A stretch of 64,000 bases of DNA from NCBI RefSeq assembly GCF_039555335.1, contig NC_092642.1, forward strand, positions 18,133,208 through 18,197,207, given 5' to 3'. Below are positions 22,732 to 64,000 of this stretch, piece by piece. A program made the position numbers and the translations under genes. Below the pieces are notes generated by a model that ran no database searches, was not told where the DNA came from, and worked only from the letters and a program-made list of their open reading frames with translations. How positions within the stretch are numbered: position 1 is the first letter of the stretch; the number at the start of each line of letters is the position of its first letter. The stretch is from Amphiura filiformis (taxonomy: Eukaryota; Echinodermata; Ophiuroidea; Amphilepidida; Amphiuridae).

Positions 22732-25700
22732 TCATATAATCTCGCATGTGTAAATGGTCTTCTCCGTTTTACATTTATCACACTTCACATTACAACACCA
22801 GTGGAATTGACAATTACACCTAGACTCCACCTCAATCTTTGTCTTCATTACTCTCAGTCCGCATTTAGTGCATAGTCTCTTGCAACTGTGATGCTCCCAC
22901 GCGGCTAGTTCATCAAGTGAAGTTTTATCTTTAGGACTCCGCAGACACTCACGGCCTTCCGTACCGCGGGTACCGATGGTAGAATTTTCGTTACAGTAAT
23001 CAGGAGACTTCTCCAAGTAGACCAAATGTCTCTTTTTCAAAACCGTTGAATCCTCGTTGGTTCCTGCCGTTCTCGAAGCAACCTTTCCATTGATGAGTTT
23101 TCCACGAACATAATCTACTCGGATAGCATCCAGGTATTTCTTCTTGAGTATAGATCCGATGACACGGAAGTCAGCGAGTTGGTCCCAGCAGGTTTGGATC
23201 GAGCAGCTTCCTGACACACCATGACACTTGCATTGCCGTTGCATGTTCTTACGAACAACCTATAAAGAAGTAAATAGTATACAATTAAGAAATAGATTTA
23301 ACATTGAAATTTGTACCTGTTAGCAGTGGTATTTTCCCCATCAGGATCTCATTAAAGGGTTCGGTCACACTCGATAGACAAATTGATTTGGAATCGTAAC
23401 ATTATACTCTTTCGTCTACTGAAGATAGCAAAACATTTCTACATTATAGTTTTTATGTTGCGCTTGGTTCAGCGACGTGACGGACAAAATATATAATATT
23501 CGTACATTTTGTATTCTTTTGCCCAAAAGAGTCAAGTTCTATTATTGCAACATATACTTGTAAGCATGATAATACATCATGCAAAAAGAGCTATTGGAAA
23601 CTACTAACACAGACGCCTCAAAAATATAAAGAAAATCTTTTTTGCGTTTATATTTCAAATGAAAACAAAGTTCTATTAATGATGGGCCATCGCACGTGAC
23701 TCAAACTGGATATTTTCAGTCGATTAAGATTAGATCAAATATTAAATCATCTTACCTTTCTTCCTACTTCGTTGTTATGGAGATTGGTGACAGCTCTCGC
23801 ATCTTCACCCGTCTCTAAACCGTCGATGAAATTCTTGGAAATCCTCTCAGCGAACTGGACATCATCACTACAACCACCCCACTGCCAGTCATCACCGCCT
23901 AAAACAAAGTGAAAGGAAAAACATATAATATTAGTTATAATCTCTGATTTTTTTTGCTGGAATATTTCAATTTTGGACACACACCTTGATCATGATTGGG
24001 TGAAAAAACATGGAAATCTGGGTTATTCCTTCATGTAATTTTACACGAAATTAGGGTTAGGGTTAAGTTTAGGGTTGGGATTACGGTTAGGATTAGGGTT
24101 AGGTCTAGGATTAGGGTTATGATTATGATTAGGATTAGGGTTAGGATTAGGGTTAGGATTAGCTTACACGAAATAATTACATGAAGGATCGACCGAAATC
24201 TGGAATAACCCAATTGCGAGTAGGCCCTACGTACGAGGACGTTAGGGCTCACTACGGTATATAATATGCGTTTTCTTATTGATAGAGAGTCTCGTGTTAC
24301 CAGTTGGGTGGTGGGCCTTTTATGGTACAAGTGAGTTAGAATTCGAGGTAGGATATAAAAGATATCAACATACGTTTCTTTTTTCTCATCTTCTCTGGTT
24401 TCTTACCCTGTTGTCCGACTTTGCTGTTGTCGCACCCACATTTGCTGAAGTCGCCCAGACTACAATTCTTGGTCAACGTGAACACAATAGCGGCGGTGCT
24501 GATGGCATGAACAAAAGACATCTCACGAGTCGCTGTAAAGAAGCACAAAATAACAAAATCTCACAATTATTAACTGAAATAAGAACATTGGAATCAAAGC
24601 AAACAGTTTTGAAATACTCATGTGTACGACTACGAATATTAACACTCTTTCGTGAATAAAGTTAGCCTCGGTTCGAAACTTCTGGGCTCTGGGATGGTTT
24701 TTTTTTTTAATTTCAGAAAATTGCTGATTCCAACCACTGCACCAGTTTTTATGTCTTACTCACAACACTGTAAAGTTCTCAATATGGCAAGAAAAAATTA
24801 GAAGGAGCCTACAATACACTGAGTTGTGAGTAAGAAATAAAACAGTGTTGAAGACATAAAAACTGGTGCAGTGGTTGAAATTAGCAATTTTCTCTGGTTA
24901 TTTTCTCAGAACCATGACAACGACGAGAGGTAGTAATCTGATATTATCATTTACAGATCAGAGGTGGGTGGGCAGGATATGAAGACACCTGAATAAAAAA
25001 AAACGGGAAAAAATAGAAAGAAAAAACCACCATCTCAGAGCCCAGAAGCCTCGAATCGAGGCTAGAATAAAGTTAGCTTACGTATTTTTTTTGCCGAAAG
25101 TATTTGAAGCGAAATAGTAGACTTGATCAGTTCCCTCGGATTGCGATGTCCAACTGGACAGCGAGGAGAGTAGTGCCGATACCGAGGCGCGCAGCGCCGA
25201 GGTGAGAAGAGGCCATAGCGCCGACATCGAGGCCGAAGGCCGCCAGATTGTGGATTATCAGTGTTGGAGGACTCGGGACTCGGACTCGGACTCGAGTCCG
25301 GACTCGAGTCCTTTTTTCAAGGACTCGGACTCGGACTTGGACTCGGAAGCTAAGGACTTGGACTCGGACTCGGACTCGGACCCCAAGGACTCGGGGACTC
25401 GGCTTCGAGTCCTCCTCGAGTCCGGTAAAATAGGGTCTTTTTAGGTCTTTTATTTTCGTTCATTGTAAACTTGATCAATGATCACATCACATGATTAATT
25501 CAAGTAGTTTTACATGCAAATAAATTCAGTTTGTAAATCAAAGTAGGCCTACAATCAAAAAAGCAAGATTGCTTTCAGTTATATCTTTAATTGGTTAAAT
25601 GGATTTTAATCATATTCGTTTGTTTTGACATGACTGCTTTGTTAGACGCAAGTCTAGAATGTACATGAATAATAATAATACTCTGTGGCACTCAAGTTAA

Positions 25701-28700
25701 ATTTTGGTAGGGGTGTGCGGCGCCGAACTTTGGGAACTATAAGAACTGATTTGGGGGCAAAATAGGGGCTTGATGAACGGAAATTTGAACATTTTTGTGG
25801 AGGTCTGTGAACTAAAGTTGGGCCAAATTATAGGCTTTGGAGCTAACAAATTCAAAATATTTCCAAATATGAGCTCAAGACCTACAATTTTCAGAGTGTT
25901 AGGCTCAATGAACTGGAGCATGATGCAAATGTGTTAAGGGACTGCCGGAAGCCTGAAAAGGGACCCCTGACTGCATCTTTTGCCTCTCTAAAACACAAGC
26001 CTAATAAGTTACTGTGAGTCTGTGATTATACTCTGTTTCCAAGGTATGCTACCTAAGGGTAAAAAATTTTGACCGATCGAAAGGGAGGCGAAAGGGAGGG
26101 TGGAAGCATTTTTTGACACTGGGGGAACAAGCAATTTTTGGCACATATGGCCGGGGCACCTTTCAAATTAAATGCTCTAAAAAGGCTTAGAAAACAGTAC
26201 GGAAAGGCTTACATAATACAGATTTCCCTGCTCGCGCGCTGTGCTCGAAACATAATTATCTAAACCTTTTAAGGTTTGTAAATTGGGATCCCCCCAAAAT
26301 GGCATGTGCAAAGATTTTTGGCAGGTCGGGGGGGGAGTTAACGATTTTGGCAGGCCGAGAAGGGATAAGCATTTTTGGTAATTTCACTCCTCCCCGGGCT
26401 CAGCATAATTATTGCACAGCCCCAAAACAATACTAGGCATGCTAGGTGGGACTAGCAAATTATGTATTTACAAGAAAATAATATAGAACTAAAATTCTGG
26501 TTAAGTATAGGCTATACGTTGATAAATTATTGGTGAAAACCCCGGGCTTTAATTTGATACATAAGGACTCGGACTCGGACTCGGACTCGAACATTGAAGA
26601 CTCGGACTCGGACTCGGACTCGGACATCAGAAATTGGCAGGGACTCGGACTCGGACTTGGACTCGGACACCAAGGACTCGGACTCGGACTCGGACTCGGA
26701 TGACGAGGACTCGACTACAACACTGTGGATTATATGGTAGTAGCACACCTGGTAAATATTTGCTCGTGTGTTATGGGTAGCGGCAGAGGCTCTATACTAG
26801 AGCTACCGGTAATGAAGGTAAATTTTTACAGGATATATATGGCTAAGTTCTTTTAATGTTTTGAGAATTACAGAAAAAAATCTTAATTGCAGGTTAAATC
26901 AACTTACGATGCAATTCGGTGAATAACGACAGCGAGTTGTCGGGACAATTCCATCGATCCCACTTGAATTGATGTTTACACTCCGACATGGCGTGGCCTG
27001 CTCCAGCTGCTAGGCTGTCAGAGTAAGACAAATAGGTCTGTGGAAGAGATGACAAAAAATTTGAGATCGATGTCAAATGGTGGAGTTAGAAGAGTTTGTT
27101 TAAGATTACTCTTTATAAATCAAATCACCATCATAGCATAAGCTTTTATTTTCAACTTTGCCGCAACTGAGATAAAGTTATACGTTTAGCCATATCATGT
27201 GGCCGGGTGTGTGTGTGTGTGTGTGGGGGGGGGGTTCAGTGGCGGATCTAGATCAGTCAGAAGCTGAGACGAATATACCTAACAACTTTTAAAAAGCACG
27301 CACATAATTCATAATCATAAGAGATCCATTCATCGAACCATATCGATCCTTTCAATAAACATACCCAACACGATGCTAATTAGATAATGATACCTAAAGA
27401 AAGTTACCGCCATGAAAAGGGGTCATAAATGACATTGACAAAACCCTCCATAAAATGATGCTTTAAGTCCCTTTCCAAGTTAACCCGCTTTTATTAAGTT
27501 TTATCGCTTTTGTCAAGATTTGGAATTTTGTCTAATTTAAGAATCAGTGAAGATGTAAGGCCGGTTAAAATTAATGTGTTGGTTCTCGTCCCCTCCTTTC
27601 CCAATTTCTGGGATTTGCAAAGATTTTTTGTTTTTAGATTTTAATATTTTTTAGACTTTGGAATGATTTATGAAAATCTCATGCATATGAATAAGTTTAT
27701 TAGAGAATAGGGATCACTTCCAAGTCTATTTGTGGTAATCTATATAGGTGGTTTATCCCTCAGAATCTCACACTTAAAAAGGGCCCATCCTTTCCTTAAG
27801 CACTGTTGGAAAAGACTGAAAACTACTGATAATGCTCATTTGACATTGAAAAAAAAACTCATTCCCTCATCAATTCATGAAAATCCTCTGGACGAGAACC
27901 AACATTAATTTTATACGGCCTAGTAATCTTCTCGGTATAAGAACTGCGTGCTAGCCAAAGGGTGTAACATCAAAAGTTTTCGAGATATTTTCTCAAAATA
28001 TCAAGAATTATCTTAAGAACCTCTAACCCAATACTAGGCTTGTTTGTACTCATTCTAATGCATTTTTCATGCTGATTCCAAACATGGCAACGAAATGGAC
28101 AATTTTCAACATTTTATAACTTTTTGTCTATAGTCAAAACCTTTCTCAGCAAACACAAAACGTTTTTAAACAGGTTTATTTTGGGTTTTGGTTTTGGTAA
28201 AAAAACGTTTTAATAAATTTAATAAATGTCGGGTTAAATAAAGCTAATGAAAACGTTTTGTATGAAAACACACTACAGAAACATTTTTTGAATGTTTTCG
28301 AAATGTTTTGTCAACATTTAAATAACGATATGTTAGAATGTTTGCAGCAAATTATCAAAACTGTATTTGAATGTTATGAAAACGTTTATTTATACCCTTT
28401 ATTATATACTTTATATAACCCGACATTTAAACGTTTTCAGGCAACCTTTCTAACCTTTTGCGAATGATGTCGAAAACGTTTTGTATTTGCTGTGTAGAGG
28501 GCTAACGATTGCAACAAATATATTAAAATACAACATTGGATGGTATAAACAATAATAATGCTTCTTACCTTTGAACCAGCTAGAAGCAGGTTACTTGCTT
28601 GCGACCTGTCAAAAACAAACATTTTAATCTTAAGACTTAATTTGTGTTTTTAAAGGCAATATGTCAAGCTTCTGAAATATTTGGTAAATTTAGTATGGAT

Positions 28701-29281
28701 ATAAAGCTGAAATCGTGCAGATTTCATATAATTTTATTTAAAAATACAAACAATTATCGCTAGTTTTTGAGTAATCCACCGCGTATTTACTAACCGACAC
28801 GATTAAAGCCCACCTCGTGTGAAAAAAATGCATTAAAGTTACTATTATTATAATTATGTTTTGCATCATTTTAACTCGACATAAACTCGTAAACTATCTA
28901 TCAAAATTGTTCAATCTTATGTTGTTCAATGAAAGACACTATTTCTGTTATAAAGTCATTTATGCTATCATAATATTGTTTTTATTTACAATTAAAGATC
29001 TAAATGCGTGCGTGAGATGCATCCCTAACATCGCGATACTAAAAAAATCGTTCATGGTATCATAATATTATTTATTATTACAATATAAAACGAATGTGTG
29101 CTTTTAAGATGCCCTAACTTCATGGTACCGAAAAACAAACACTTAATTTACTACTCAAAGAACTTGCCCTATGAAATGCATGATCTATATTGCAAAATAC
29201 TTACCAGCCATTAATGAAGCAATGTACCTGCATCGCAGATAGCAAACAAAAATATAAAACTGCAGCAACTTGACGAAACAT
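22732..29281 (-). CDS. wnt8: Wnt8 family secreted signalling protein, tandem gene 1 (six coding exons)
   Basis: Exons in transcript order are 29281-29205, 28605-28569, 27037-26908, 24532-24407, 23898-23756 and 23259-22732, all with GT-AG borders and matching phases, giving 346 residues, close to the usual Wnt8 length (about 350). The start is the ATG of an N-terminal hydrophobic signal peptide (MFRQVAAVLYFCLLS). Wnt hallmarks are seen: the ECKHQFKWDRWNCP block in exon 3, GGCSD in exon 5, and [10 protein letters not shown] in exon 6, where Ser187 fits the serine that is palmitoleoylated by Porcupine in this family. The Cys-rich C-terminus (RCNCQFHWCC) is complete, and an NST glycosylation sequon is present. 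Wnt8 over other Wnts is judged from TREMSFVHAI, NNEVGRK and SPDYC. The protein would be secreted and bind Frizzled/LRP5/6. Introns 2-4 are swollen by transposons compared with genes 2 and 3. Exon joins are inferred; no transcript was seen. Confidence 0.93.
24019..24213. mobile_element. Small inverted-repeat element carrying a TTAGGG-like array, in Wnt8 gene 1 intron 4
   Basis: About 115 bp of degenerate TTAGGG/TTAGGA repeats (24051-24166) lie between inverted sequences: TGGGTTATTCC at 24019 with its complement GGAATAACCCA at about 24203-24213, and CCTTCATGTAATT with AATTACATGAAGG inside. Genes 2 and 3 lack it, so it arrived after duplication. Confidence 0.75.
24664..25063. mobile_element. MITE, about 400 bp, in Wnt8 gene 1 intron 3
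   Basis: The outer inverted repeats (GCCTCGGTTCGAAACTTCTG and its near complement at about 25040-25061) enclose inner ones (CCACTGCACCAGTTTTTATG and its complement). An 11-bp direct repeat, AATAAAGTTAG, lies at both sides, so the target duplication is either that or TA. Confidence 0.75.
25259..26725. mobile_element. hAT-type non-autonomous transposon with (GGACTC)n arrays, in Wnt8 gene 1 intron 3
   Basis: The ends are CAGTGTTGGAGGACTCGG and, reversed, CAGTGTTGTAGTCGAGTCC. The 8-bp target duplication TGGATTAT is perfect (25251-25258 and 26726-26733). CAGTG termini and 8-bp duplications fit hAT. GACTCG-type hexamer arrays lie near both ends (about 25270-25420 and 26564-26712) in the same orientation. 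No transposase frame is seen. Confidence 0.9.
27202..27235. repeat. (GT)n followed by a G-run
   Basis: A short GT microsatellite and about ten G residues lie in intron 2 of Wnt8 gene 1. Confidence 0.9.
28147..28492. mobile_element. AACGTTTT-rich inverted-repeat transposon in Wnt8 gene 1 intron 2
   Basis: The ends are CAGCAAACACAAAACGTTTT and, reversed, CAGCAAATACAAAACGTTTT. It is the same family as 9326-9899 and carries the shared internal motif TAACCCGACATTTAAACG. It has no open frame. Confidence 0.85.
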
Positions 29282-29553: not shown

Positions 29554-32809
<3,256 letters not shown>

Positions 32810-33114: not shown

Positions 33115-33860
33115 CCCCTGCAAATGTTCCAAAATGTTCCCCTGGTCATGAGGTTTGTTGTCACCGAGTTTGAGTCCCGTACTCCTTATACATGTCCAGA
33201 AAATGCAATGTTAAGATTTGACCCCAGATGACCTTTGACCTGACCCCTGCAAAATGTTCCAAAAATATTTCCCTGGTCATGAGGTTTGTTGTCACCGAGT
33301 TTGAGTCCCGTATTCCTTACAGATGTCCAGAAAATGCAATTTTGATATTTGACCCCAGATGACCTTTGACCTGAACCCAGCAAATGTTTCCCTGGTCATC
33401 AAGCTTGTTGTCACCAAGTTTGAGCCCCGTACCCCTTCCAGAAAATACATTTATAAGATTTGACCTCTGCATGACCTTTGACCTGACCCCTGCAAAATGT
33501 TCCCTGATCATGAGATATGTTGTTACAGAGTTTGGCCCCATAACCCTTACAGATATCCAGAAAATGAAATTATAAAAATTTGACCCCAGATAACCTTTGA
33601 CCTGACTCCTGCAAAGTGTTCCAAAATGTCTCCCTGATCATTAAGTTTATTGTCACCAAGTCTGAGCCCCGTACCCCTTACAGATGTCCAGGAAATTCTA
33701 AAATTTGACCTCTGCATGACCTTTGACCTGACCCATGCAAATTGTTCCCCTGGTCATGAGATTTGTTGTCACCGAGTTTGAGCCCCATACTTCTTACAGA
33801 TGTCCAGATAATGCAATTGTAAGATTTTGCCCTTTAATGACCTTTGACCCCAATTCTGTA
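33115..33860. repeat. Tandem repeat of about 120 bp, around six copies
   Basis: GACCTTTGACC recurs at about 33230, 33361, 33473, 33592, 33719 and 33839, each with GTTGTCACCGAGTTTGAG and a GTCCAGAAAATG motif between. The left edge of the large duplication falls inside this array. Units two onward reappear at 43952-44400. Confidence 0.85.
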
Positions 33861-34147
33861 TGCAAGTTCTGGGCGTGGGGTATAGCCGATGCATATATGC
33901 AAATGACATCATTGTACTATATAATATGTGGCAGAAGAAGCATTTTGAAGGTATTTGGTTAAATACAGGAAATGCCCCCTTAATGACCATTTACCCCAAT
34001 TCTGTTTAGACCCTATGGGCGCTGGATATAGCCAATACATATGTGCAAGTTACGTAATTGTAGGGTGTAACATGTAGGAGGAGAAGCATTTTCAAATTTA
34101 TTGCCAGAAAGAAAGAAAGAAAGAAAGATCCGATAGCATTACAGTAC

Positions 34148-34180
34148 GTAGCTGGGGGGTTGTAAACCCCCAGCTAGGTA
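34148..34180. repeat. Short hairpin GTAGCTGGGG...CCCCAGCTAG
   Basis: There are two complementary arms around TTGTAAA. The duplicate is near 44696-44724. It is a possible transposon end, since TAGCTGGGG also occurs near 33081. Confidence 0.7.
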
Positions 34181-34251
34181 ATACAGTTGCAGTTTGTGTT
34201 AATTGGCCAAAGGCACACTGCAAAAACTGTGTCTAGAGATTGAACACTTTT

Positions 34252-34321
34252 TAACATTTAGACATGTTTAACATTTAGACATGTTTAACATTTAGACATG
34301 TTTAACATTTAGACATGTTTA
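34252..34321. repeat. 17-bp tandem repeat, four copies
   Basis: AACATTTAGACATGTTT is repeated head to tail, and again at about 44806-44872 in the second unit. Confidence 0.9.
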
Positions 34322-34889
34322 CAAATTGAGGACAAGATGGTGGCTAGAATGGTCTTTAATATATGGACACTGTTTTTGCAGTGCATGTTTAAATTTTACT
34401 ACCAATTTTATAACACTTTAGTCAGCAACACAAAGACAAAATCAAGTACACTACTTGTCACAAAAGCATTTACTCACTTTTTACATTCAAACAATGCAGT
34501 GATCATTGACCTCTGGGTCCTATTTTATGAAACTTTGGAACTTCTTTGTTCTTAGGTGACTGACTTCCTAATATTTGTCTTAACTTCTTGTCCACCATGC
34601 ACATTATTTTCTAAACTAAAGGTGTGTACGATCGACAATGGGACTCTGTCCCCACACTGACCTCAAAGATGTCAAAAATCAAGGTTTGGATACTATTAGA
34701 TAGCCCCTACTTGTCTCCTGCTCCTCCTAAGATTTTACACCCAAAATCCTTGTACTTTTGAAAAAGTGTGAAAAAAGCTGTCAAAGATAAAAGCATTTTC
34801 TTTAATGTTTTTCTCACAATTTGTTCAAATGTACTATGATTTTGAGCATGAAAATTAGGAGCTTGAGAAAAATAGGGGCTTATGATAGT

Positions 34890-35318
34890 CCTGGGGGGGG
34901 CACTCAACTTTGGAAGTGACAGGTATGTGCCTACCGGAGTCAAGTAGGGGCCTATCGGGTACAAAGCGTTATTTTAAAAAGGGGGTCATTGGGTACAAAC
35001 AAAATAAAAAAGGGGTCATTAGGTACAATATTTTGAAAAAAGGGGGTCATCGAGTATAAGATTTTAAAAAAGGGTCATCGGGAAGAAAATTTTGAAAAAA
35101 TGGAGCAAAATTTTGACAATTTCGGCATAATTTTGAAAAAATTGAGCAAAATTTGACAGTTTCGGCATTTTTTTGTTCCATTTTGATGATGCTATTCTAG
35201 AAAAAAGGGGGTCATTGGGTAGCCTCAACCAAAAAAATAGGGTCATTGGGTAGCCGCAACTAAAAAAAAGGCACAGGCACATACCGTCACTTCCAAAGTT
35301 GAGTGCCCCCCCCCCGGG
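34890..35318. mobile_element. Non-autonomous transposon, 429 bp, CCCGGGGGG ends, unit 1 copy
   Basis: The inverted ends run about 30 bp (GGGGCACTCAACTTTGGAAG). The target duplication is 8 bp (ATGATAGT, with one substitution on the right side). Inside are repeated GGGGGTCATTGGGTA-type motifs. The duplicate at 45437-45874 confirms the borders. The 8-bp duplication suggests hAT; the superfamily is uncertain. Confidence 0.85.
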
Positions 35319-35774
35319 GTGATAGTGCCAAAAGTTTGAGATCTTTGGCAAGTTGGGGGATCTCATACTCACATTATTGATTATATCAAGCAATTTAAAA
35401 CATTGGAAATGCTAAGAATCAATTGGCATCATATTAGAAGATATTAGTGTCTTTATGAACATTACAACATATCATTTTTCCACATGACAAGAGAGACAGT
35501 AGATATTCTTAAAGAAAGATTAAGAAGAATACCTGTGTATGAGAAATGATATCATACTTTTAATTTTCTTCAATGTGTATTTTATGCTATCATTTTTAAA
35601 TGAAAGCTTTCCAGAATACTTAGTTGCAATATGTTTTGTAACACTATTGATGCTAAATTTTTAATGTGTGTCTCTTGTGTGAATAGACCTGGAAGTGTGT
35701 CAGAATTCAAAACGGGGGAAGGGCACTTTTTACAGGTGGAATGATCTGGAATCACAGACATCTGCTTGTGAATT

Positions 35775-36020
35775 GAAATGCTGAATTGAAATCAAAGCTG
35801 AATTTCATTTCAATTCCACTTCATTCTTCATCACTCAACATGATTTCAATTCCAATCCAATTCAATTCTTCATTGCTCATGATGATTTCAATTCCAATCC
35901 AATTCAATTCATGCCCAAGCCCACTCATTTCGATTCCAATTCAATTCCAATGCATTGAAATGAAAATTGCCCAAAATTCATTTCAATTCAATTCAATTTC
36001 AATGCATTGAATTAACACTA
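35775..36020. repeat. Degenerate TTCAATTCCAA repeat, unit 1 copy
   Basis: This is the same motif type as 32810-33055. It is duplicated at 46330-46575, and the open frame through it is repeat-driven. Confidence 0.8.
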
Positions 36021-36221
36021 GTATGGAATAATAGACAAATCAAGACATTGCTACACAATAATTCTTCTCTGCGTTGAAAAACTTGAAATCAATATAGGAA
36101 TTTTGTGTCTTATTTTTGTTATTTTGATTTAAAAAAATATAGATATAAAAACGGAATTTCTTGATTTTCAAAGATCTTACTAACGCGCGCGGCAGCTTTG
36201 GGACTCAGGATTTTATTAAGG

Positions 36222-36740
36222 TGGTACTACACCCCTGGCCAATTTTGACAACTAAGATATGTATATTATAGGGGCAAGGACTACAACTACTGCACTGAAA
36301 ATTCAGTAACTCAAGGCGTAGTTATATTGATCAAATACTGGTTTTCCCTCATTTTTGACTGTAACTCCACAACTGTTGTCTGTGCTGAAATAAAATTTCT
36401 AGTGCAGTAGTTGTAGGCCTTGCCCTATAATATACATACCGTAAAACCCCGTCTACAAGCATATATGGTGTTTTTTATGAAAGCTAAATTAATTCGAAGC
36501 AAGCGTAAATATACCAATACAATAGATTGGTCTTAAAATAATACTTCTTTGCATATGCTTGGATCCGTAATTTATTTGTTCGAACTCCATAATGGTGCCT
36601 GGATTAATGTAGCTTTCATCAGAAGCACTCTATATGCTTGTAGACGGGGTTTTACGGTATCTTACTTGTCACCAATGCGCTATGATTTTTGAGAAAAATG
36701 CAAAAATATGCACAAAATTGGATGGCCTTTTATTAGGCAT
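36222..36740. mobile_element. Transposon with a second MITE nested inside, unit 1 copy
   Basis: The outer sequence begins near GGTGGTACTACACCCCTGGC and continues after the nested element with CTTACTTGT(C)ACCAATGCGC. A reversed fragment of the same family is at about 12060-12160 (GGCCAGGGGTGTAGTACCCC). The nested CCGTAAAACCCC element lies at 36439-36657 with TA on both sides. The unit 2 copy is at about 46776-47293. Confidence 0.75.
36439..36657. mobile_element. MITE, 219 bp, CCGTAAAACCCCGTCTACAA family, unit 1 copy
   Basis: Same family as 17960-18179, with a TA target duplication, nested within another repeat. Confidence 0.92.
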
Positions 36741-37894
36741 ATCACCTCAAAAATAATCGCAGCAGAAACACGTTATTTAATGTTCCTACATTATTGAACT
36801 TTATTAAACCATCAAAAGTTAAGCTAATTAATATGCAAAATTGATGCCAATAGAAAACCGTACATGATATAAAGGTGCGGTTTTTTTTGCACACATATGT
36901 ATGCAAAGTTCTTTCAATTGATAACAAAAACTACACAAAAAGTAATTAATTATGCAAATTAGGTAATTACAGCTAATTATGTATTTATGATTTTATTATG
37001 CAAATTAGGCATGAGTAATTTTAGGTTTTTTTTTCAATTTAATGAACGTCTGTTCATTCATCATAAATTTTTTAAGTATGATCCTGTTATGAGGTTGAAT
37101 AAATGAACTGCAGTTAATTATTTAAAAACAATACAAACAAATGACATTTTGACGGTGTCTGGAATATAATTTTAATTTTTACTGTAAACATGGTATGTGT
37201 CACCATTACTCAAAGCCAAGTCCGAAAATTAAAAATTAAAATTCAGTTGCAATGAGACTTTAAATTAACATTTTGTCATCTGGATTAACATGGGAGGACA
37301 ATCAGTAAAAGCAATAGCCATTTTACTGTACCGCGTATACAAAAATAGTATGGCCTTGGACACACACAATGGCTTAGTGCTATTGTGGTTTGGAAAATTA
37401 CTCCCTAAAAATATCATTGATTAATGTTTTGCTTCAACTAGTTTTAGGGAAGTGTTTCATTCGTTGTCGACGGAATTAATTTACATGCTAAGAAAGATTA
37501 GTATTTCAGCTAAATGGTGGTAGTTCCTTTACTTCAATAGGCCTATATTTACTGATTTATGAGCGATCTTCAAAAATCCATAAAAACAGTCAGTAGCTCT
37601 TAATCAAAACAATTTTTAATTTTTGAGGACCCGATGTTAGCCTCGGAAAGGCTTCACACACCATATATTAAAAATTTAAACAATTTGGATAAATGAAGCA
37701 TATGAAGAAATTCATTTAATGACATGGCTGTTTTCTAAAATTGGCCAAATTTGAAGCGCGCCCTTTTCAATTCACTGTTATGCTTGCATGCACAGTGTAG
37801 CAGAATTATTGTGCAGCCACTGTGACATACCTACGATACCAGTCCTTCTAAGGGGTGGGGTTCAGTTCAGTTCAGTTTATTTCACCTTTAAATA
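36741..37894. other. No gene seen (also at 47294-48444 in unit 2)
   Basis: AT-rich DNA with ATTAATTATGCAAATTAG-like stretches. I see no coding signal on either strand. Confidence 0.5.
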
Positions 37895-38507
37895 TGAACG
37901 TTTGGACAGATATTTTGTGGGACATGACAGCACATCAGACATATCGAATTGCATTCTGAATACGAAGAATGTTCTTCTGATATAAAATAATTTTGATTTT
38001 TATAAATTCGCGATATATTACACATTTTATGACAAATGATTAAAATTGATATTTTCGATATTTAACAGTCCTCGAAGTAAACTTTATAAATCTGATGATA
38101 TGCACTTAAAGTATATGTAGGTGGGATGAAAAGCCGACGATTAATTGAACATTTTAACCTTTTGTATTGACGATTTTTTTCCCAAAAAAAAAAAAAAAAA
38201 AAAGGTCTTTTTGGGAAAAAATGTAATCTTCAATATGAACGGTCAAAATCTTCAATTGAACGTCGGCTTTTCATCAAGCTACATGTACTTTAAGTACATA
38301 TCAATAGATTTAGAAAGTTTACTTCGAAGACTGTTAAATATCGAAAATTTTAAAAATATCAAATTTTAATCATTTCTCATAAAATTTGTATTATATCGCG
38401 AATTATCTAAATTATTTGATATCAGAAGGACATTCCTCATATTTATAATACAATTCGATATGTCTGATGCGCTCTTATGTCCCACAAAAATACTGTCCAA
38501 ACGTTCA
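37895..38507. mobile_element. Long-arm MITE, 613 bp, unit 1 copy
   Basis: The ends TGAACGTTTGGACAGTATTT and, reversed, the same at the right are flanked by TA. Internal arms carry CAGTCCTCGAAGTAAACTTT and a poly-A loop. Confidence 0.9.
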
Positions 38508-41410: not shown

Positions 41411-41518
41411 CTGTTAAGAAAAAACATAAGAAAAACGTTAAACATTGAAATTTACAATCAGCCGCGGCCTTTTCTCACATTAAAGGATTGCTCAATAACA
41501 ATTTAATTCGTATGTAGA

Positions 41519-48444: not shown

Positions 48445-49061
48445 TGAACGTTTGGACAGATATTTTGTGGGACATGACAGCACATCAGACATATCGAATT
48501 GCATTCTGAATACGAAGAATGTTCTTCTGATATAAAATAATTTTGATTTTTATAAATTCGCGATATATTACACATTTTATGACAAATGATTAAAAATTGA
48601 TATTTTCGATATTTAACAGTCCTCGAAGTAAACTTTATAAATCTGATGATATGCACTTAAAGTATATGTAGGTGGGATGAAAAGCCGACGATTAATTGAA
48701 CATTTTAACCTTTTGTATTGACGATTTTTTTCCCAAACACCAAAAAAAAAAAAAAAAGGTCTTTTTGGGAAAAAATGTAATCTTCAATATGAACGGTCAA
48801 AATCTTCAATTGAACGTCGGCTTTTCATCCCAGCTACATGTACTTTAAGTACATATCAATAGATTTAGAAAGTTTACTTCGAAGACTGTTAAATATCGAA
48901 AATTTTAAAATATCAAATTTTAATCATTTCTCATAAAATTTGTATTATATCGCGAATTATCTAAATTATTTGATATCAGAAGGACATTCCTCATATTTAT
49001 AATACAATTCGATATGTCTGATGCGCTCTTATGTCCCACAAAAATACTGTCCAAACGTTCA
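48445..49061. mobile_element. Long-arm MITE, 617 bp, unit 2 copy
   Basis: Duplicate of 37895-38507, with a shorter poly-A loop. It lies just beyond the inferred poly(A) site of Wnt8 gene 2. Confidence 0.9.
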
Positions 49062-49129
49062 TACCAGAGCCCCTAATGTTACGAAAGCAAAATAATCGAA
49101 GCGGTATAAAGTCATATTTCATCTACACG

Positions 49130-50120
49130 AGTGTTTTATTTCTCATATAATGTTAATTGGTATACAAAAGTGACAACAAAAAAAAATATAGTTCATGTGA
49201 ATTAAGTATCCAAAATAGGTTTTGTTATATACATGTTAAAATATTTACATATTATTTACAAAATGCACAAATTTATTTATAATGTCAGTTCGCTTATACT
49301 TGTTTATAAATACATTAGAGCGATGAGCTCGTTTGGTTAAAATCTCACATTTCGTCAACTGCTCATCCATAAAAATCTTACAAAAATTACTCAACATTGA
49401 GTAATTTTTTACTCATTTGTTGAGTTCTGATCTATATGAGCTCAATGTTGAGTAATTTTTACTCAACTGTTGAGCTGTGACTTTTTTACTCAGTGTTGAT
49501 TAAAATATGTTTTACAGTGTATGTATTACCCTATCCTCAATGGACTATTGATTAAATCGAGAGAAAATACTTCAAAGCATCAAGTTGGTACACTACAACA
49601 ACAGCAGACCAAACACTTAACAAACACATGAACACGTAAATGGCTAATTACATAGGGAGTGTTAATACTCCAACACTAAAACGCGTTAAAATACAAATAT
49701 GTTAAAGTTAATTATTAGTACCACGCTATCGTGTTAAAACATGTTTCAACACTATTGTGTTAATAATAATAACACATCTTCATACTTTCAAAGTGTTTTA
49801 ATGCTTTTAAGTGTTCTGCTGTTTTTGCCGTGCATACGACCATTTTCAAATAGTCTGACCCAATGCTACAACAAGTTTTCAAAAATGTTATTTAAACGTG
49901 TTAAACGTTCACCCTCTACTGTTCCATATGAATGTTATTTAAACGGTTACTGTTTTCCCACATAGGGACGGCATATTTTGCACCTTGTGTTGCACCTTGC
50001 TGTGCATCATAATGCAATAACCTTACTGTATGTTTTTGTCAGTTAAAACATTAAAGACATATCAAGTACGTCACAATAGCCTATAAATCCACGATGTGCA
50101 CAAAACTGTCCAGTTCAAGT
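49130..50120 (-). other. Inferred 3' UTR of Wnt8 gene 2
   Basis: The poly(A) signal AATAAA on the minus strand is at 49140-49135 within GAAATAAAACAC, as in gene 3. The block 49135-49330 is conserved in the other paralogues. Within it, 49386-49500 has TTGAGTAA/TTACTCAA inverted repeats, and 49640-49960 is rich in GTGTTAA/TTAACAC motifs; both look like inserted MITEs. The copy downstream of the orphan exon is 38576-39556. Confidence 0.6.
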
Positions 50121-53100
50121 TCATAAAGTCTCGCAGGCATAAACGGTCTTCTCCGATTTACATGTATCACATCTCACGTTGCAGCACCATTGGAATTGAC
50201 AATTACATCTAGACTCCACCACAACCTTTGTCTCCGTTACTCTAAGTCCACATTTAGTGCATAGTCTCTTACAACTGTGATGTTCCCACGCGGCCAGTTC
50301 ATCAACTGAAGCATAATCTTTAGGATTTCGCAGACACTCACGGCCTTCCGTACTGCGTGTACCGATGGTAGAATTTGCGTTACAGTAATCAGGGGACCTC
50401 TCCAAGTAGACCAAATTCGCCTTTTTCAAAACAGTTGAATCCTCGCTGGCTCCTCCTTCTTCAGTTCTCGAAGCAACCTTTCCATTGATGAGTTGACCAC
50501 GAACATAATTTACACGGACGGCATCCAGATATTTCTTCTTGAGTATAGATCCGATGACGCGGAAGTCAGCGAGTTGGTCCCAGCACGTTTGGACGGAGCA
50601 GCTACCTGACACACCGTGACACTTGCATCGTCGTTGCATGTTCTTACGAACAACCTGTTAAGAAAAAAACATAAGAAAAACGTTAAACATTGAAATTTAC
50701 AATCAGCCGCGGCCTTTTCTCACATTAAAGGATTGCTCAATAACAATTTAATTCGTATGTAGATGGTCGAATCCAACCAAAAGTGTCCACGGGCCAAAAA
50801 TAAAAATCCGAAATAAAAATGTCTCCACAATGTTTTCCTTTTGCCCATTGATTGATGACATATTGGCCTTATAGGAACCAAAAGTGCCATTACTAATCTT
50901 GAAAAATAAACCCAGGACGTGTGATAGTAAATGTGATACCAAAACCCAACGTTACCTACGAATACCACTAGGATGCTTTCATTATCGCAATACTAATCAA
51001 CCTAAAACGAATGGAATATTCCCATTAACGCTTTTTTCGTGTAATGTAGACCACAGGGTGTCAGGAAAATGCTAGCTCAACCTGAAAATATTTGTTTTTA
51101 TTTTTATAACGCGATTAATATGATTTTAGTCAATTTATGCTAGTTTATTTTTGAAAACGAAGTTTAGGTCAGTTTCTGTATTTTATTTATCAAATGAGTA
51201 TGAATCAATTTACACATTGTATAAGAACGAGTAGGATAATGCTTTCAAGAATACTAGGAATTATACGCATACACCTAACGCTTTATACAATGAAAAGGTG
51301 AAGAAACCCGGGTATTCGTAGGTAACATGAGCGATTTAACAATATCTATATTGAGTTTAGAGGTTTAAATGTTGCTATTATGGTAATGAATTAATAAAAT
51401 GGTAGTTTTTAGATATCTTTCAGATGGTACGTCCAAATGAATAAATACCATTACCTTAGATCAAACAATTTTTGATGCTTTTAGCAAGATTTTGACCACT
51501 TCATTTTGATAATAAGTAGTTAATCAGCAATTTTACATAATAAATAATTGTTGAATGAATCCGTATATGGGTAATAATAGTGTCCTGGGGTACCGCTTTA
51601 AGTTTTTGACAATTAATTTCCATTGGTAGGGACACTTCATTACACATGTCATGTATTATGCTGTATTCGTAAGTAACATTTCAGTATTTGTAGGTAAGAA
51701 TTAGACTTTTGGTGGATATCGCAATCAAATCTTCATTTTATAAAGCACTTTGAATGTATTATTTTCTTTATGTGCGTTTATTGATACTTGAGACCCTATC
51801 ATGTATATTTAATGTCGGTTCACAGTGGTTGAAAGAGGATTGAAGTAAGAAACAAAGGCACTAAAGTGACTTTAATTTGCTTAATTGCACACAAATCGCT
51901 TAAAACCGTTATTGCAGACTTGTGAAGTCCATCTTGGTGTCAGTTACGTCTTGTGGCCTTTCATTTGAGGGCAACTATAATTAGCTTTGTACTAGGGTCC
52001 ACCACTGTGTTGTCTAGATCATGAGACAATGAGAAAAGTCGTTTTTGTCCATGGTATTCGTAGGTAAACTTAGCGAAAACGTCAAAAGTTACCTTCGAAT
52101 AAACCAATTTGGACACGAATTACTCAAACCAGAAGGTCGGTAAACGTTTAAAATGAAACACACATGACAGCTGACAAATCCAAGTATTTATCCCTTCTAA
52201 TCTTCTTCGAATCTGATTTTTCTTTCAAATGAGCAGACCGTCGTCTATTTCAGTACATATTTTTCAACAATTAAGCCGTATTCAGTTTTGCATGGTGGGC
52301 ATGTATGTGAATTCGCAACTTTCATTGACATATGATTTGATAGCAAACATACAGGCCTTCGTTATGTACCAATATGGGCATTGGCATGAATGGCGGTGCT
52401 GTCATGATGTCAAATTGTATTCGTAGGTAACATTCGGTTACCGAAATTTACCTACGAATACTTGCTTTTATTGTTGACATCTCAGAAATATTTAAACGCA
52501 GGCTATTGAAACTTGATAGAAATAAAGAGTGTATTACCCTGCACCTATTGCTTAACTATTGTTTACTATTCTCTCAGTTTGTGGAAATGACACAGCTTTT
52601 AACATGTATTCGGAGGTAATGCATATTTTTTACCAAACCTACCTTTGTGCCATTTAGAATTTCTGGCAGCTAAACACAATAATATAGATGTCCGAATGCA
52701 ATGCATTTCAGTATTGGACATATCAAAGCTTGTATCAATTGCTCATTTATTAGTGATTTCCATTTTTTAAAGATATATTTAGTGCTATGAAAAATTGTAT
52801 TCGTAGGTAATGAAAAAAAATACCACTCAAAAAATTATCACAAAAAATGCACAATTATGTACAAATATGTGAAAAATTGAATAGGCAATCTTTGAATATA
52901 CACCTTTCAGGAAATCAATTTAGATTCAATCCAATGACTTCTTTTCATAACTGATTTAGATGTTTTTAAAAATACTTTAAGAAATATTTTGAAAAAATGG
53001 GTAAAAATAGCATGTTTTGGGGTCTCTGTGTCTAAGTTTTTCACAGAAGGGGTCTTATTATATATGGCGCGAAGCGTATGATCAAGGCGAATAAACACAA

Positions 53101-56100
53101 TACAAAAACAAATGCCAATTGATTAATACTTTTAAGTTATGGCCCTGAACATGCCGTGTACACTTTTCATTGGATTCGACCAGTATACATAACGCCATGA
53201 ACATGAACACAGTCATCTCTCGTCTACTGAAGATAGCAACATCAATATTATAGTATATATGGCGCTATGTGTTGTGATATCTGAGTTAGCACATTAGTGG
53301 AACCAAAGTGTTTGGACTTCTTTACATCTCCGATGATAAAACTAGAATTTGTTCCATTTCTATTATGCCCCTGATTCCCACGATACGCCAAAAATGCACC
53401 GAATCAATCGCAACTTGCCTCAAACCCAGGGATTCAAATTACTGCTGTCGGCAAATTGCACCAAAATGGTGCATTAAGTAACAGCATAATGATATTTTTA
53501 AAATGCAACCTTAAAACAATATGACAATTGGCTTTTCTAGTTTTGTCACTTTGACATGTAAGGATGCGTTTATTAGGCATACATTATAATGGGATAAGAT
53601 TTAGTCGCCTTACCTTTCTTCCAACTTCGTTGTTATGGAGATTGGCGGCAGCTCTTGCATCATCACCAGTTTCTAATTCGTCTATGAAATTCTTGGAAAG
53701 TCTCTCGCCGAAATTGACATTATCACTACAACCACCCCATTGCCAGTCGTCACTACCTGAGTGAGGGAAAAACAAACAAAATATTAGTTTAAATAACATT
53801 AAATGGACAAAAAGTTGCTGGAATTTGTCACTTTTGAACGAATCCATGCCTCTGAAGAATGAAGGCCTAATGGCTTTTACGAAACAGATCTGTAAAGCCA
53901 TGTTGTACAAGTCCAAAATGTTATGCATTTCTAATCTGTTTCAAGAACCATCATCCAAAATAACTTTAATTAAAGTAAAGAGTCACATGGCAGAATTGCA
54001 AAGCTAGAAACCGACATATTGATATCAATAATGTTCTTACCCATTTGTCCGATTTTGCTGTTGTCACATCCGCATTTGGTGAAGTCGCCCAGACTACAAT
54101 TCTTGGTCAATGTAAACATAATTCCGGCAGTGCTGATGGCATGGACGAAAGACATCTCACGAGTCGCTGTATAGATGGAGAAACAAAAATCACAAAACTA
54201 TAATATATTAACATGATAAATTGGAATAGGAACAAACTAAACTTAACATTTGCCCTTGTGCAAAAGATAATTTTGTGTTAACTCTACATTTCAAAATTTC
54301 AAAAAAAGAGTGAAAATACTTTTTTTTTCTTGTGGACGAAATGTTACCCCATACAAAGGATTTATGACTAATGAAGATTTTAACAGAAAATTAATGTAAA
54401 AAGGAATATAATCTGTGCTTTTAGGAATTTATGATTTCACTACTACTATGACAATTGAACATTTTTTTCATTATGTATTTTATTAGGTAAAATCAACTTA
54501 CGATTCAATTCGGTGAATAACGACAGCGAGTTGTCGGGACAATTCCATCGATCCCACTTGAATTGATGTTTACACTCCGACATGGCGTTGCCTGCTCCAG
54601 CTGCTATGCTGTCAGAGTAAGACAAATAGGTCTGTGGAAGAGATGACAAAAAGTGATTAGAATTATGTTATTATTGTCAGGTTCAAGTTTAGGCCATTAG
54701 GATGAATTATTTTTTAATCTTAACTTTTAAAAATATAAAATGATATTATTGCATTATTTTTAAATTTGCTGAATAGAGAAGGGTATGAAAAGTACAAAAT
54801 TCATACAAACGTAAAAATTCAAAATCAAATCAACTTTTTTTCTTCTAAAATGATAATATGCAATCATTGTGAAAGTTCCCAATACATTTGGACGCGAAAA
54901 ACATTGGGAATTTGCAAAGAAACAACATCATAAACTTCACCTCTATCACTCGAAACATCTCGCACTAGTATATTACTAGGACAGCGAGTGCGGCCTCAGA
55001 GTTAGTCTCCTACGCGGCCAGTTTGGTTACGCTCCCTCCACATGTGGAGGGAGCGTAACCAAGCTGGTTTTGTACGAGACTACGGTTTGCGATCGTGGCC
55101 GACATAAAGTCATAATCTAAAATTATGACTTGATGTCGGACCAACAGAAAATCGTCCCGTTTTACTACAAATAGGACGAATTTGACAGTTTGCTCATAGA
55201 TTTAAGTTAGAACATGTGTAAGTATTACAAATATGCCAAAAATCGGTTTTGAAAAAATAAAGGTAAATTCTGAAAAAGATCGTACATTATGACTTTAATC
55301 AAGCATTAAAAAGGGATCCGAAAGAAATATAAATAATCCTAAGAAGCAAGTATGCGATCAGGTTTATTTATTTATTTAGTTTATTAATAAAGCAATAGGC
55401 TTAGGCCATAAAAGAATTTCCTGATCCAATAAGCAAAAGCAGCAAGACTAGATCGATTGATCAATGCCAATAAAGTAAGCAATCGATATCGATGAGTCAG
55501 TCCTTTCATGAACAGACCCACCAGGATGCTAATTAGATAATGACGTCAAATTCATTACCAAGTTACCGCCATGAAAATTAACAACCCCATATCGACCTAA
55601 AAACTTGGCAATTGTCATTCTAAGCCTTTTCCAAGTATTAAGTCAACCAGCACCGTATATGGTATGCAAAAGTGAAGTCATGATGACATCGTATGTTTCC
55701 TTTTATATCACAAGATTCAGAATTTGTGATTTCCCCATTTGTAACTTTTTATTACGATGAAACAGACTTCTTCAATGAATCCTTCAAATCCAAGTTACAT
55801 TCTAACAAAAAAAACCAGTCGATTTACTTCAGCTTTAAAAATACTCTCGGGAAAAACAGACAAAAATTGTAACAGACAACAACAATTCTTACCTTTGAAC
55901 CAGCTAACAGTAGATTAGTTGCTTGTGACCTGTCAAATAATTCAAAAAGAAAACAATCTTTTTAGACTAAGTAATCATCAACATAAACAATGTTACATTT
56001 GACTGAAGATTGCCTAATAACAATTTTTATATTCAGAAATTTCCCCACTTACAAGTGTACGGTTTTTAACAAATAAAATCAGTATACGTGTATTAATAAG

Positions 56101-56355
56101 TTATAATAACTATTAAGAAAATATGTTTTTAGACGCAAGTGAGATGCATTCCTTACTTGACAATATTGAAAACCTACTTGAAGAACTACTAGATGTATAA
56201 TAAAACTTTACCAAATTACAATTATTTAACTCCAAGAAAACTGTAAAATAAAGAATTTTTTGCATATACTTAACTTACCAGCCATTAATGAAGCAATGTA
56301 CCTGCATCGAAGATAGCAAACAACAAGACAAAACCGCAGCAACTTGACGAAACAT
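50121..56355 (-). CDS. wnt8: Wnt8 family secreted signalling protein, tandem gene 2 (six coding exons)
   Basis: Exons in transcript order are 56355-56279, 55929-55893, 54631-54502, 54166-54041, 53756-53614 and 50654-50121, giving 348 residues. Exons 1-5 have exactly the lengths and phases of gene 1; exon 6 is 6 bp longer. The signal peptide, the WNCP block, the lipid-acceptor serine in CHGVSGSC (Ser187) and the C-terminal cysteines are all intact. It looks closer to gene 3 than to gene 1 (both have [22 protein letters not shown] and CNCQFQWCC). Intron 5 is about 2.96 kb, against 0.4-0.5 kb in genes 1 and 3, because it holds a 2.4-kb transposon. A near-identical second copy of exon 6 lies about 9.2 kb further downstream as part of a large duplication. 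Expression and regulation are not visible directly, but the 5' leader and 3' UTR end are conserved with the paralogues. Confidence 0.93.
50764..53182. mobile_element. 2.4-kb non-autonomous transposon in Wnt8 gene 2 intron 5
   Basis: The inverted ends are TGGTCGAATCCAACCAAAAG and, reversed from the right, TGGTCGAATCCAATGAAAAG, followed by GTGT(C/A)CACGG. Genes 1 and 3 lack this sequence: their intron 5 joins the flanking conserved blocks within 0.4-0.5 kb. Inside, a GTATTCGTAGGTAA motif occurs about ten times in both orientations. No transposase frame is seen, and the target duplication is not clear. Confidence 0.75.
55003..55082. repeat. Inverted repeat with a perfect 40-bp palindrome, in Wnt8 gene 2 intron 2
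   Basis: 55023-55062 is perfectly self-complementary (half: TTGGTTACGCTCCCTCCACA). The arms continue imperfectly to TAGTCTC...GAGACTA. It is probably a small transposon remnant. Confidence 0.9.
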
Positions 56356-61195: not shown

Positions 61196-64000
61196 TCATA
61201 AAATCTCGCAGGCATAAACGGTCTTCTCCGATTTACATGTATCACACCTCACGTTGCAGCACCATTGGAATTGACAATTACATCTAGACTCCACCACAAT
61301 CTTTGTCCTCGTTACTCTAAGTCCGCATTTAGTGCATAGTCTCTTGCAACTGTGATGCTCCCACGAGGCTAGTTCATCAACCGAAGCATCATCTTTAGGA
61401 CTGCGCAGGCACTCACGGCCTTCCGTACCACGTGTACCGATGGTAGAATTTGCGTCACAGTAATCAGGGGACTTCTCCAAATAGACCAAATTCGTCTTTT
61501 TCAAAAGAGTTGAATCCTCGCTGTTTTCTCCTTCTACAGTTCTCGAAGCAACCTTTCCATTGATGAGTTGACCACGAACATAATTTACACGGACGGCATC
61601 CAGATATTTCTTCTTGAGTATAGATCCGATGACGCGGAAGTCAGCGAGTTGGTCCCAGCACGTTTGGACGGAGCAGCTACCTGACACACCATGACACTTG
61701 CATCGTCGTTGCATATTCTTACGAACAACCTGTCAGGAAAAAACAAACAAAAAAAACACGTTAAACATTGACATTTAATTAACATTAAAGCGCGGATCAG
61801 GATCTCACTCAATAGATAATTCATTTGGGTACATAACATCCTCTCTCGTCTACCGAAGATAGCAACATCAATATTACATCACAATTTGCTTGTTGCGGTC
61901 CGCCGACATACATATACAATATTGTACATACATTCTAATGAATTTAAAAGTTGACCAAATATTGTATACAACAATATAGGCTACTTATAGTTAACAATTT
62001 TTGTCACATCGTAATGTTTTATTACAAACAAAGATATTAGTGTTTTGTCTTTACTGGTCAAATAAAATGGCAACACGTAGATACTAAATAAACACTAGTT
62101 CCAAAACATGTTAGTCGTCTTACCTTTCTTCCAACTTCGTTGTTATGGAGATTGGCGACAGCTCTTGCATCATCACCAGTTTCTAATTCGTCTATGAAAT
62201 TCTTGGAAAGTCTCTCGCCGAAATTGACATTATCACTACAACCACCCCACTGCCAGTCGTCACCACCTGAGTGAGGGAAAAACAAACAAAATAGAATTTA
62301 AAATAACGTTTAATGGACAAAAAGGCACTTTTGAACGAATCCATGCCTCTGAAGAATGAAGGCCTAATGGCTTTTACTAAACAGATCTGTAAAGCCATGT
62401 AGTACAAGTCCAAAATATTATGCATTTCTAATCTGTTTCAAGAACCATCATCCAAAATAGTCACATTTTACCAGTCGTTATGGCATATTGATATCAATAA
62501 TTTTCTTACCCATTTGTCCGACTTTGCTGTTGTCACATCCGCATTTGGTGAAGTCGCCCAGACTACAATTCTTGGTCAATGTAAACATAATTCCGGCAGT
62601 GTTGATGGCATGAATGAAAGACATCTCACGAGTCGCTGTATAGATGGGAAAAACAAAACAACAAATCATTAACATAATTAAGTGGAATAAACTTAACATT
62701 TGCCGTTCAGCAAAATAGAACATATACTCTTTGGTTAACTTCAAATATTCAAGTATCTGAGTGAAAAGCATCCTTGATAAAACGTTCCATCGTGGACGAA
62801 ATGCTACTTCATATTTACTCGTAACTAACTGAACTCAAAACGGTAAGTTTTGGGTCTTTATGTATTTATCACTCTTAAATTGCAGGTAAAATCAACTTAC
62901 GATTCAATTCGGTGAATAACGACAGCGAGTTGTCGGGACAATTCCATCGATCCCACTTGAATTGATGTTTACACTCCGACATGGCGTGGTTCGCTCCAGC
63001 TGCTATGCTGTCAGAGTAAGACAAATAGGTCTGTGGAAGAGATGACAAGTGATATGATTAGAGTTCAATGTTATTATCATCAGGTTAATACTGAAATTTG
63101 GCCTAATTAGTAAGGGTATGAAACATACAAAACTCGCATAAACGTCAAAACAGAAATACGCGAAAATTGTATCCAATTAAATAGACATTATTGCATTATT
63201 TCCGATTTTGGCGAATAGGGACAAACGTCAAAAAACAAGCACAATTTCAAAATTAAACTTATTTCGTTCCACACGTATTAAAAAGGGGTCAGATATAAAT
63301 AATAATCCTAACAAGGCAAGTATGTGAATATCAGTTCTTTCTGTTCATTTCTGGTTACTTATGTTTTGCAATGGTTTCCTGATCTAAACAAAATCCATTA
63401 ATACTACTAAGCTACTCTCCACTTGTAATAAACGTGTCAAATTAGTTTCTTTAGTAAATCATAAAAACAAGTTAAGTCACATTCTAATGAGAAAACAGTA
63501 GATCTACTCAGGAAAAAAATAACATTCAACTTGTAACATATATTTCAAATTCCAATTATGTCAGATGGTAAACGACAATTCTTACCTTTGAACCAGCTAG
63601 CAGTAGATTAGTTGCTTGTGACCTGTCAAATAACCAAAAAAGAAAACAATCTTAATAAGACTTATACTCAATACAGTGTTAATAAAGCTACACGATCCTT
63701 TGTAAGTATTTTTAAACAAATTCATCAGGTTTAGTAATTAACATAGTAAGTTTTCTTCAAACTATAGGTAGGCCTATTATTCCAAATTTACTTATCTAAT
63801 CCATTCATTTATTTTCGTGTGCTCAACAAAGTGTAATAGAAGAAATAATTACATGTTTTTAGACGCACGTGAGATGCATTCCTAACTTAGCAATACTGCA
63901 AAACTACTATATAGATATATAATAAAAATTTACCAAATTACATTTTAACTCCAACAAATGTATGACATTTTTTTTGCAAAATACTTACCAGCCATTAATG
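61196..64000 (-). CDS. wnt8: Wnt8 family protein, tandem gene 3, 5' end cut by the window edge
   Basis: Exons in transcript order are 64000-63989 (the last 12 bases of exon 1 only), 63622-63586, 63030-62901, 62635-62510, 62266-62124 and 61729-61196. Splice borders and phases equal those of genes 1 and 2. The signal peptide and start codon lie beyond the window. All visible Wnt motifs are intact: [38 protein letters not shown] with the lipid-acceptor serine, and the terminal CETL-like end, here CEIL. Introns are the shortest of the three copies (intron 3 is 265 bp, intron 4 is 243 bp, intron 5 is 394 bp), which may be closest to the ancestral state. No coding defect is seen, so it is likely a functional paralogue. 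Confidence 0.92.

Follow-up and report, generated by a model that had tools for sequence, protein, structure and literature searches.

Wnt8 is an early secreted ligand of primary-axis patterning, and invertebrates often have just one gene for it. Here we describe a tandem array of Wnt8 genes, called g1, g2 and g3, in a 64,000-nucleotide stretch of the ophiuroid Amphiura filiformis (contig NC_092642.1, positions 18,133,208 to 18,197,207; hereafter the window, in whose numbering all coordinates are given). In teleosts (zebrafish, medaka and pufferfish), the available text of PMC3896364 describes a tandem wnt8a pair in which both genes are intact and differ in expression, and a bicistronic transcript is reported there for the zebrafish pair. 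The teleost-type feature, at least two intact Wnt8 genes lying head to tail on one strand, is present in A. filiformis (three genes, g3 being cut in exon 1 by the window edge). Unlike the pair described for teleosts, the genes here are three in number, separated by 4.8 kb (g3 to g2) and 20.8 kb (g2 to g1), and are accompanied by an orphan exon.

The nearest invertebrate precedent for duplicated Wnt8 is Apostichopus japonicus, for which two Wnt8 records (PIK51023.1 and PIK51024.1) appear as apparent duplications in the accessible part of PMC9957329. The consecutive accession numbers suggest that the two are perhaps neighbours. The same part of that source gives no gene order, exon structure, selection analysis or third tandem copy; it states that Wnt8 was not found in Holothuria glaberrima, and the available portion of a sea cucumber genome paper (PMC5638244) contains nothing on Wnt8. 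Among other invertebrates, stolidobranch ascidians offer a parallel in that a single Wnt subfamily has been amplified in tandem within one lineage: they have tandem Wnt5 copies, the other non-vertebrate chordate Wnts surveyed being single (PMC6060547, in part). Unlike the present case, that amplification concerns another subfamily, and the ascidians covered by that survey lack Wnt8. As far as the available texts go, Wnt8 is single or Wnt duplicates are lacking in three amphioxus species, each Wnt subfamily is represented by a single gene in Saccoglossus (PMC5786327), the Wnt genes of Acanthaster are all single and several unnamed duplications occur in Apostichopus (PMC6390002), Patiria has no Wnt duplications (PMC9957329), the brachiopod Terebratalia has one wnt8 (PMC11414264), and arachnopulmonates have no Wnt8 duplicate, even after whole-genome duplication (PMC8664421). 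An initial sequence-only reading of this stretch had set the array against a usually single Wnt8 gene in sea urchin, amphioxus and hemichordate and against the tandem wnt8a pair of zebrafish; that comparison omitted the A. japonicus duplicates. It had also proposed a lineage-specific expansion. The tandem expansion is supported, and lineage specificity is indicated only indirectly, by the single Wnt8 or lack of Wnt duplicates in the amphioxus, Saccoglossus, starfish and brachiopod surveyed and the lack of a Wnt8 duplicate in arachnopulmonates, as far as the texts cited go. No title or abstract among the matches listed in the literature (mostly open-access, without supplements) describes three tandem Wnt8 genes. 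A tandem Wnt duplication is an already known kind of event, to which this locus adds three genes, a dead last exon and a lead on gene conversion.

Very probably, this locus is a genuine array in which three intact Wnt8 genes arose by successive local duplications; a later 9.2-kb duplication added a spare exon that a transposon has broken, the genes are under purifying selection, and exon-limited conversion is the simplest reading of their uneven divergence. All three genes lie head to tail on the minus strand, g1 from 29281 to 22732, g2 from 56355 to 50121, and g3 from beyond 64000 to 61196 (Table 1). Gene models were built from a list of open reading frames (ORFs) and a self-comparison of the window, followed by reading of exon borders and comparison of upstream introns. 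Each gene has six exons; exons 2 to 5 measure 37, 130, 126 and 143 bp with identical phases in all copies, exon 6 measures 528 bp in g1 and 534 bp in both g2 and g3, and GT-AG borders are found in 15/15 introns. The frames of g1 (346 amino acids) and g2 (348 amino acids) are open from ATG to stop, and that of g3 is open over its 326 visible residues, exon 1 being represented inside the window by just 12 nt. The head-to-tail arrangement of three genes on one strand and the identical lengths and phases of exons 2 to 5, both claimed in the sequence-only reading, are thus borne out. The accompanying claim that coding defects are lacking holds for g1, g2 and the visible part of g3, but it missed a broken extra last exon at 39557-41410. 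Exon 2, which at 37 bp is below the reach of the 60-residue ORF list, was detected by comparing the copies, in all of which it is bordered by AG and GT. Joining exon 1 straight to exon 3 was ruled out, as an in-frame TGA results; because exon 1 reads into this stop unless the shared 37-bp exon intervenes, exon 2 is required as well as observed. Searches with all three proteins (tblastn, E up to 1) gave no further Wnt sequence in the window to the left of position 22735, which makes g1 its leftmost copy. Intron 5 is 2,959 bp long in g2 (50655-53613) against 496 bp in g1 and 394 bp in g3, and its growth apparently preceded the duplication, by which most of this intron was copied. Simple repeats occur in two introns of g1, a short telomere-like ATTAGG/TTAGGG array in intron 4 (24050-24162) and two GGACTC hexamer arrays in intron 3 (25321-25381 and 26565-26700).

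The assignment to Wnt8 was examined by phmmer searches of solved chains with the whole g1 and g3 proteins, g2 being placed by a tree instead. The g1 protein scored 388.7 and 387.8 bits against Wnt8 (4f0a and 8ctg) and 369.5 bits against Wnt8a (7kc4), compared with 214.2 for Wnt7a, 212.2 for Wnt3a, 207.5 for Wnt3, 204.7 for Wnt5a and 76.3 for WntD, and g3 scored 377.8 bits against Wnt8 versus 213.1 against Wnt7a. Identity of the three copies is 55-56% to XWnt8 and 38-42% to Wnt7a and Wnt3a. A tree with a copy outside Wnt8 had been named beforehand as evidence against the array; in the seven-row tree the three copies group with the two Wnt8s at 100/100, the window trio being supported at 94/93 and g2 with g3 at 77/74, with long-branch warnings. 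Across the 23 columns that separate the two Wnt8s from Wnt3a and Wnt7a, the Wnt8 state is found at 11, 13 and 13 positions in g1, g2 and g3, the other state at 3, 2 and 2, and neither at 9, 8 and 8. Exon 6 alone matches the Wnt domain PF00110 at 155.6 (g1), 143.3 (g2) and 148.1 bits (g3), far above the cut-off of 20.3. The conserved Wnt cysteine pattern comprises 22-24 residues according to the available text of PMC5786327. Each copy has 22 cysteines from WSQ onward and matches 21/21 cysteines of the aligned XWnt8 chain; the Wnt8a row has 25 cysteines when its signal region is counted, of which g1, g2 and g3 match 23, 23 and 22. All copies carry CHGVSGSC where XWnt8 has CHGISGSC, and the serine of this CHG-I/V-SGSC motif is presumably the lipid-modified hairpin site. 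Two motifs of N-glycosylation type, one of them NST, are present in all three proteins, and we take them to have that meaning. The subfamily comparison covered Wnt3, 5, 7 and WntD and left out nine of 13 subfamilies (Wnt1, 2, 4, 6, 9, 10, 11, 16 and A); within it, the proposed Wnt8 identity of the copies and their tandem expansion are supported. Judged from the sequence, the array is real and Wnt8 is its correct name.

The window also contains a tandem duplication (33406-43951 and 43951-53199), its left unit exceeding the right by about 1.3 kb. When the two units are aligned, 9,183 matches and 31 mismatches are found over 9,214 compared sites, with 29 gaps, the largest of 1,320 bp. The left unit starts within a 131-bp minisatellite at 33111-33849, and the endpoint of the units falls within g2 intron 5, so that the left one holds a copy of exon 6 only (exon 6A). 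Read in frame from its splice acceptor, exon 6A reaches a stop after 70 residues, 54 of them Wnt. Exon 6A was rejected as a whole fourth gene, since the unit ends inside g2 intron 5 and no other Wnt exon accompanies it. In terms of history, g1 would have split off first, then g2 and g3, and the later tandem duplication of the 9.2-kb unit would have copied only the last exon of g2 with its surrounding DNA. Three sites, at 12211-12824, 37893-38509 and 48443-49063, carry a palindromic element (about 610 bp) whose copies match on both strands at 78-84%; the last two are the same copy in the duplicated units.

These data also bear on whether part of the array is an assembly artifact, with two haplotypes placed in series, a suspicion that falls mostly on the 9.2-kb unit and less on g2 and g3. 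The 31 differences in 9,214 sites lie within the ordinary allelic range of outbred marine animals, and the assembly is scaffolded, with one gap of 200 N at 6227-6426. The units nevertheless meet at 43951-43952 in gapless sequence, sharing 2 bp and with no run of N, and the genes themselves are far apart for alleles: about 14% of residues differ between g1 and g2 or g3, and g2 and g3 differ at 6.4% of residues, with an intron K of 0.12-0.74 over the four introns aligned. We therefore consider such an artifact improbable and retain the interpretation as a true array. Exon 6A is split by a 1,312-bp element with terminal inverted repeats, flanked by an 8-bp target-site duplication (Table 1). Close to one of its ends the element repeats CCCTAAACAAGT five times. 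It contains no open stretch of more than 80 residues, no transposase was found for it, and no second copy was found in the window. Most simply, it would be a non-autonomous DNA transposon, and the length of the target duplication presumably fits hAT- or P-like elements. Its insertion would have broken the spare exon 6A after the duplication.

At the protein level g2 and g3 are the closest pair (305/326 identical residues, 93.6%), as the sequence-only reading had suggested, compared with 85.5% (296/346) for g1-g2 and 86.1% (279/324) for g1-g3. Nei-Gojobori estimates of synonymous (dS) and nonsynonymous (dN) divergence are 0.300 and 0.070 for g1-g2 (dN/dS 0.233), 0.290 and 0.068 for g1-g3 (0.233), and 0.081 and 0.032 for g2-g3, the pair with the highest dN/dS (0.394). 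Fisher tests of changed versus unchanged sites, made for two of the pairs, gave P 1.5e-12 (g1-g2) and 0.005 (g2-g3). The copies are therefore constrained as proteins, under purifying selection. An alternative is that the array includes recent duplicates that are not expressed and are heading to decay, with only one gene in use. Such decay would be in keeping with an unstable locus, where one exon is already dead through a partial duplication and an insertion, and with the higher ratio of g2-g3 (0.39); since every visible frame is open and change is below neutral in both pairs tested, we hold it to be unlikely and keep to three constrained genes. The codon differences between g2 and g3 cluster in the second half of the exon 6 coding sequence (50300-50654 and 61300-61729), and 51 identical codons precede this cluster (P 0.056).

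Divergence is uneven along the genes. Exon 3 of g1 and g2 has 0 synonymous differences in 26.3 sites, and as few were rarely obtained when 43 codons were drawn at random from the 346 compared (20,000 draws, P 0.00015); dS in exons 1, 2, 4, 5 and 6 of this pair is 0.14, 0.80, 0.47, 0.52 and 0.30. Between g1 and g3, exon 3 has 1 synonymous difference in 26.0 sites (dS 0.04, P 0.0037). The longest run of identical codons, a test that names no exon in advance, is likewise exceptional in g1-g2 (P 0.007) and g1-g3 (P 0.005), and both runs lie in exon 3. The introns behave differently from the exons. Introns 1, 2 and 4 of g1 and g2 differ with p of 0.52, 0.55 and 0.50, against 0.56, 0.57 and 0.54 for a shuffled partner, and introns 1, 2, 4 and 5 of g1 and g3 with p of 0.48, 0.50, 0.55 and 0.43, against 0.53, 0.54, 0.54 and 0.56. 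For g2-g3, introns 1 to 4 give K of 0.45, 0.74, 0.41 and 0.12 versus a dS of 0.081. The comparison covered the introns whose lengths allowed it, which left out introns 3 and 5 of g1-g2 and intron 5 of g2-g3. That introns are more diverged than coding exons is most simply due to short exon-limited gene conversion, which, acting on an older array and most clearly at exon 3, would have kept parts of the proteins alike as the flanking DNA drifted. We hold this reading of the cause with moderate confidence.

Several observations weigh against the conversion reading and the history proposed above. Exon 3 was chosen after inspection of the data, among six exons, and in g2-g3 it is not unusual (random-codon P 0.35), nor is the longest identical run of that pair as striking (P 0.056). 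Forced global alignment overstates intron divergence: local g2-g3 blocks retain 68-100% identity, g2-g3 intron 4 differs at only 26/243 sites, one 78% block is common to intron 2 of g1 and g2, and intron 5 of g1 and g3, with p 0.434 against 0.563 for the shuffled control, clearly still shows kinship. Identity flanking exon 3 extends only about 20 bp into either intron, low silent change in this exon could reflect splicing or regulatory constraint, and the tree, with its long-branch warning, gives weak support within the clade of the three copies. The main rival to conversion is silent-site constraint in exon 3, and a history with no conversion at all, in which the copies diverged under purifying selection with such constraint and with fast turnover of intron insertions and deletions, has an appreciable chance of being right, though well short of even. 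Conservation of the roughly 20 bp of intron next to exon 3 is what splicing control predicts, and outside exon 6 the per-exon dS values are based on 10-28 synonymous sites each. Such a history sits less easily with an exon 3 dS of 0.00 (g1-g2) and 0.04 (g1-g3) against 0.29-0.52 in exons 4-6, or with introns that at a dS of 0.3 should align, yet in g1-g2 (introns 1, 2 and 4) have p of 0.50-0.55 beside 0.54-0.57 for shuffled sequence. Exon-limited conversion remains our preferred explanation. A stronger form of it, which we put forward tentatively and regard as somewhat doubtful, is an old array whose introns and control DNA have largely diverged and whose coding exons have been repeatedly homogenized by exon-sized conversion, leaving a near-constant ligand under several independent regulatory regions.

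In XWnt8 the main coreceptor contact consists of NC-linker residues 222-234, with N230 the primary contact in an affinity-matured variant (PMC10089208, available part). One residue of the aligned linker differs between the copies, and N230 aligns with a lysine in g1, g2 and g3, at a place where the alignment is loose; canonical LRP6 binding by the copies is plausible. Near the C-terminus, the finger motif of g1 is FHW, as in XWnt8, and that of g2 and g3 is FQW, as in human Wnt8a. A receptor switch through a change from FHW to FQW was dropped as a candidate, human Wnt8a carrying FQW too. More generally, one or more copies might have diverged in receptor use, giving ligands of different specificity, as the finger motifs and a variable stretch after the NC-linker could suggest; with both motifs occurring in known Wnt8s and one residue of the aligned linker differing, this seems quite unlikely. 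If transcribed, as we infer, each gene would instead encode a secreted, lipid-modified, N-glycosylated Wnt8 ligand signalling through Frizzled, and any division of labour among the copies would concern chiefly expression (dose, place and time) and to a lesser degree the choice of receptor. Between g1 and g2, a BLAST match at 76% takes in exon 1 and some 190 bases upstream of the ATG, with further blocks in the alignment. No TCF-like site is shared, two being present upstream of g1 (29282-29700) and zero upstream of g2 (56356-56800).

Table 1. Coordinates of the Wnt8 exons, the duplicated units and the inserted element in the window.
Feature	Position	Strand	Description
g1 exon 1	29205..29281	-	77 bp, ATG and signal-peptide-like start
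g1 exon 2	28569..28605	-	37-bp microexon, SQASNLLLAGSK
g1 exon 3	26908..27037	-	130 bp, almost the same in g2 and g3
g1 exon 4	24407..24532	-	126 bp
g1 exon 5	23756..23898	-	143 bp
g1 exon 6	22732..23259	-	528 bp including stop, CHGVSGSC lipid-site motif
g2 exon 1	56279..56355	-	
g2 exon 2	55893..55929	-	37-bp microexon
g2 exon 3	54502..54631	-	
g2 exon 4	54041..54166	-	
g2 exon 5	53614..53756	-	
g2 exon 6	50121..50654	-	intact
g3 exon 1	63989..64000	-	last 12 nt only, remainder past the window
g3 exon 2	63586..63622	-	37-bp microexon
g3 exon 3	62901..63030	-	
g3 exon 4	62510..62635	-	
g3 exon 5	62124..62266	-	
g3 exon 6	61196..61729	-	
Left duplicated unit	33406..43951		10.5 kb; the insertion makes it exceed the right unit by about 1.3 kb
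Right duplicated unit	43951..53199		9.2 kb, contains g2 exon 6
Exon 6A	39557..41410	-	orphan exon copied from g2 exon 6, lacking exons 1-5 and interrupted by the element
Inserted element	39936..41247		1,312 bp, within exon 6A; terminal inverted repeats of 47 bp (89.6%)
Left target-site duplication	39928..39935		8 bp, GTTGACCA
Right target-site duplication	41248..41255		8 bp, GTTGACCA

The remainder of the window contains two 34-bp satellite arrays of identical consensus at 7064-9217 (about 63 copies) and 9900-10421 (about 16 copies), an AAAG tetranucleotide array of 72 copies at 31103-31385, and a TRIM-like ORF with a B-box domain on the minus strand at 4009-5997, near the 200-N gap. A plus-strand ORF of 654 amino acids, stop to stop, lies at 14304-16268; neither it nor a 202-residue ORF at 1765-2373 matched any Pfam family. 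Rfam gave 0 matches at gathering score on the whole window, and searches for relatives of g1 exon 6 gave 9 pattern matches in viral_contigs and 43 in genome_contigs, with 0 confirmed in either.

For the biology of the locus, the orphan exon and its transposon point to recent rearrangement. Three arrayed copies whose frames are intact offer a natural test of how an axial morphogen can change in dose and regulation, and repeated exon homogenization, if true, would amount to concerted evolution of a key axial morphogen.

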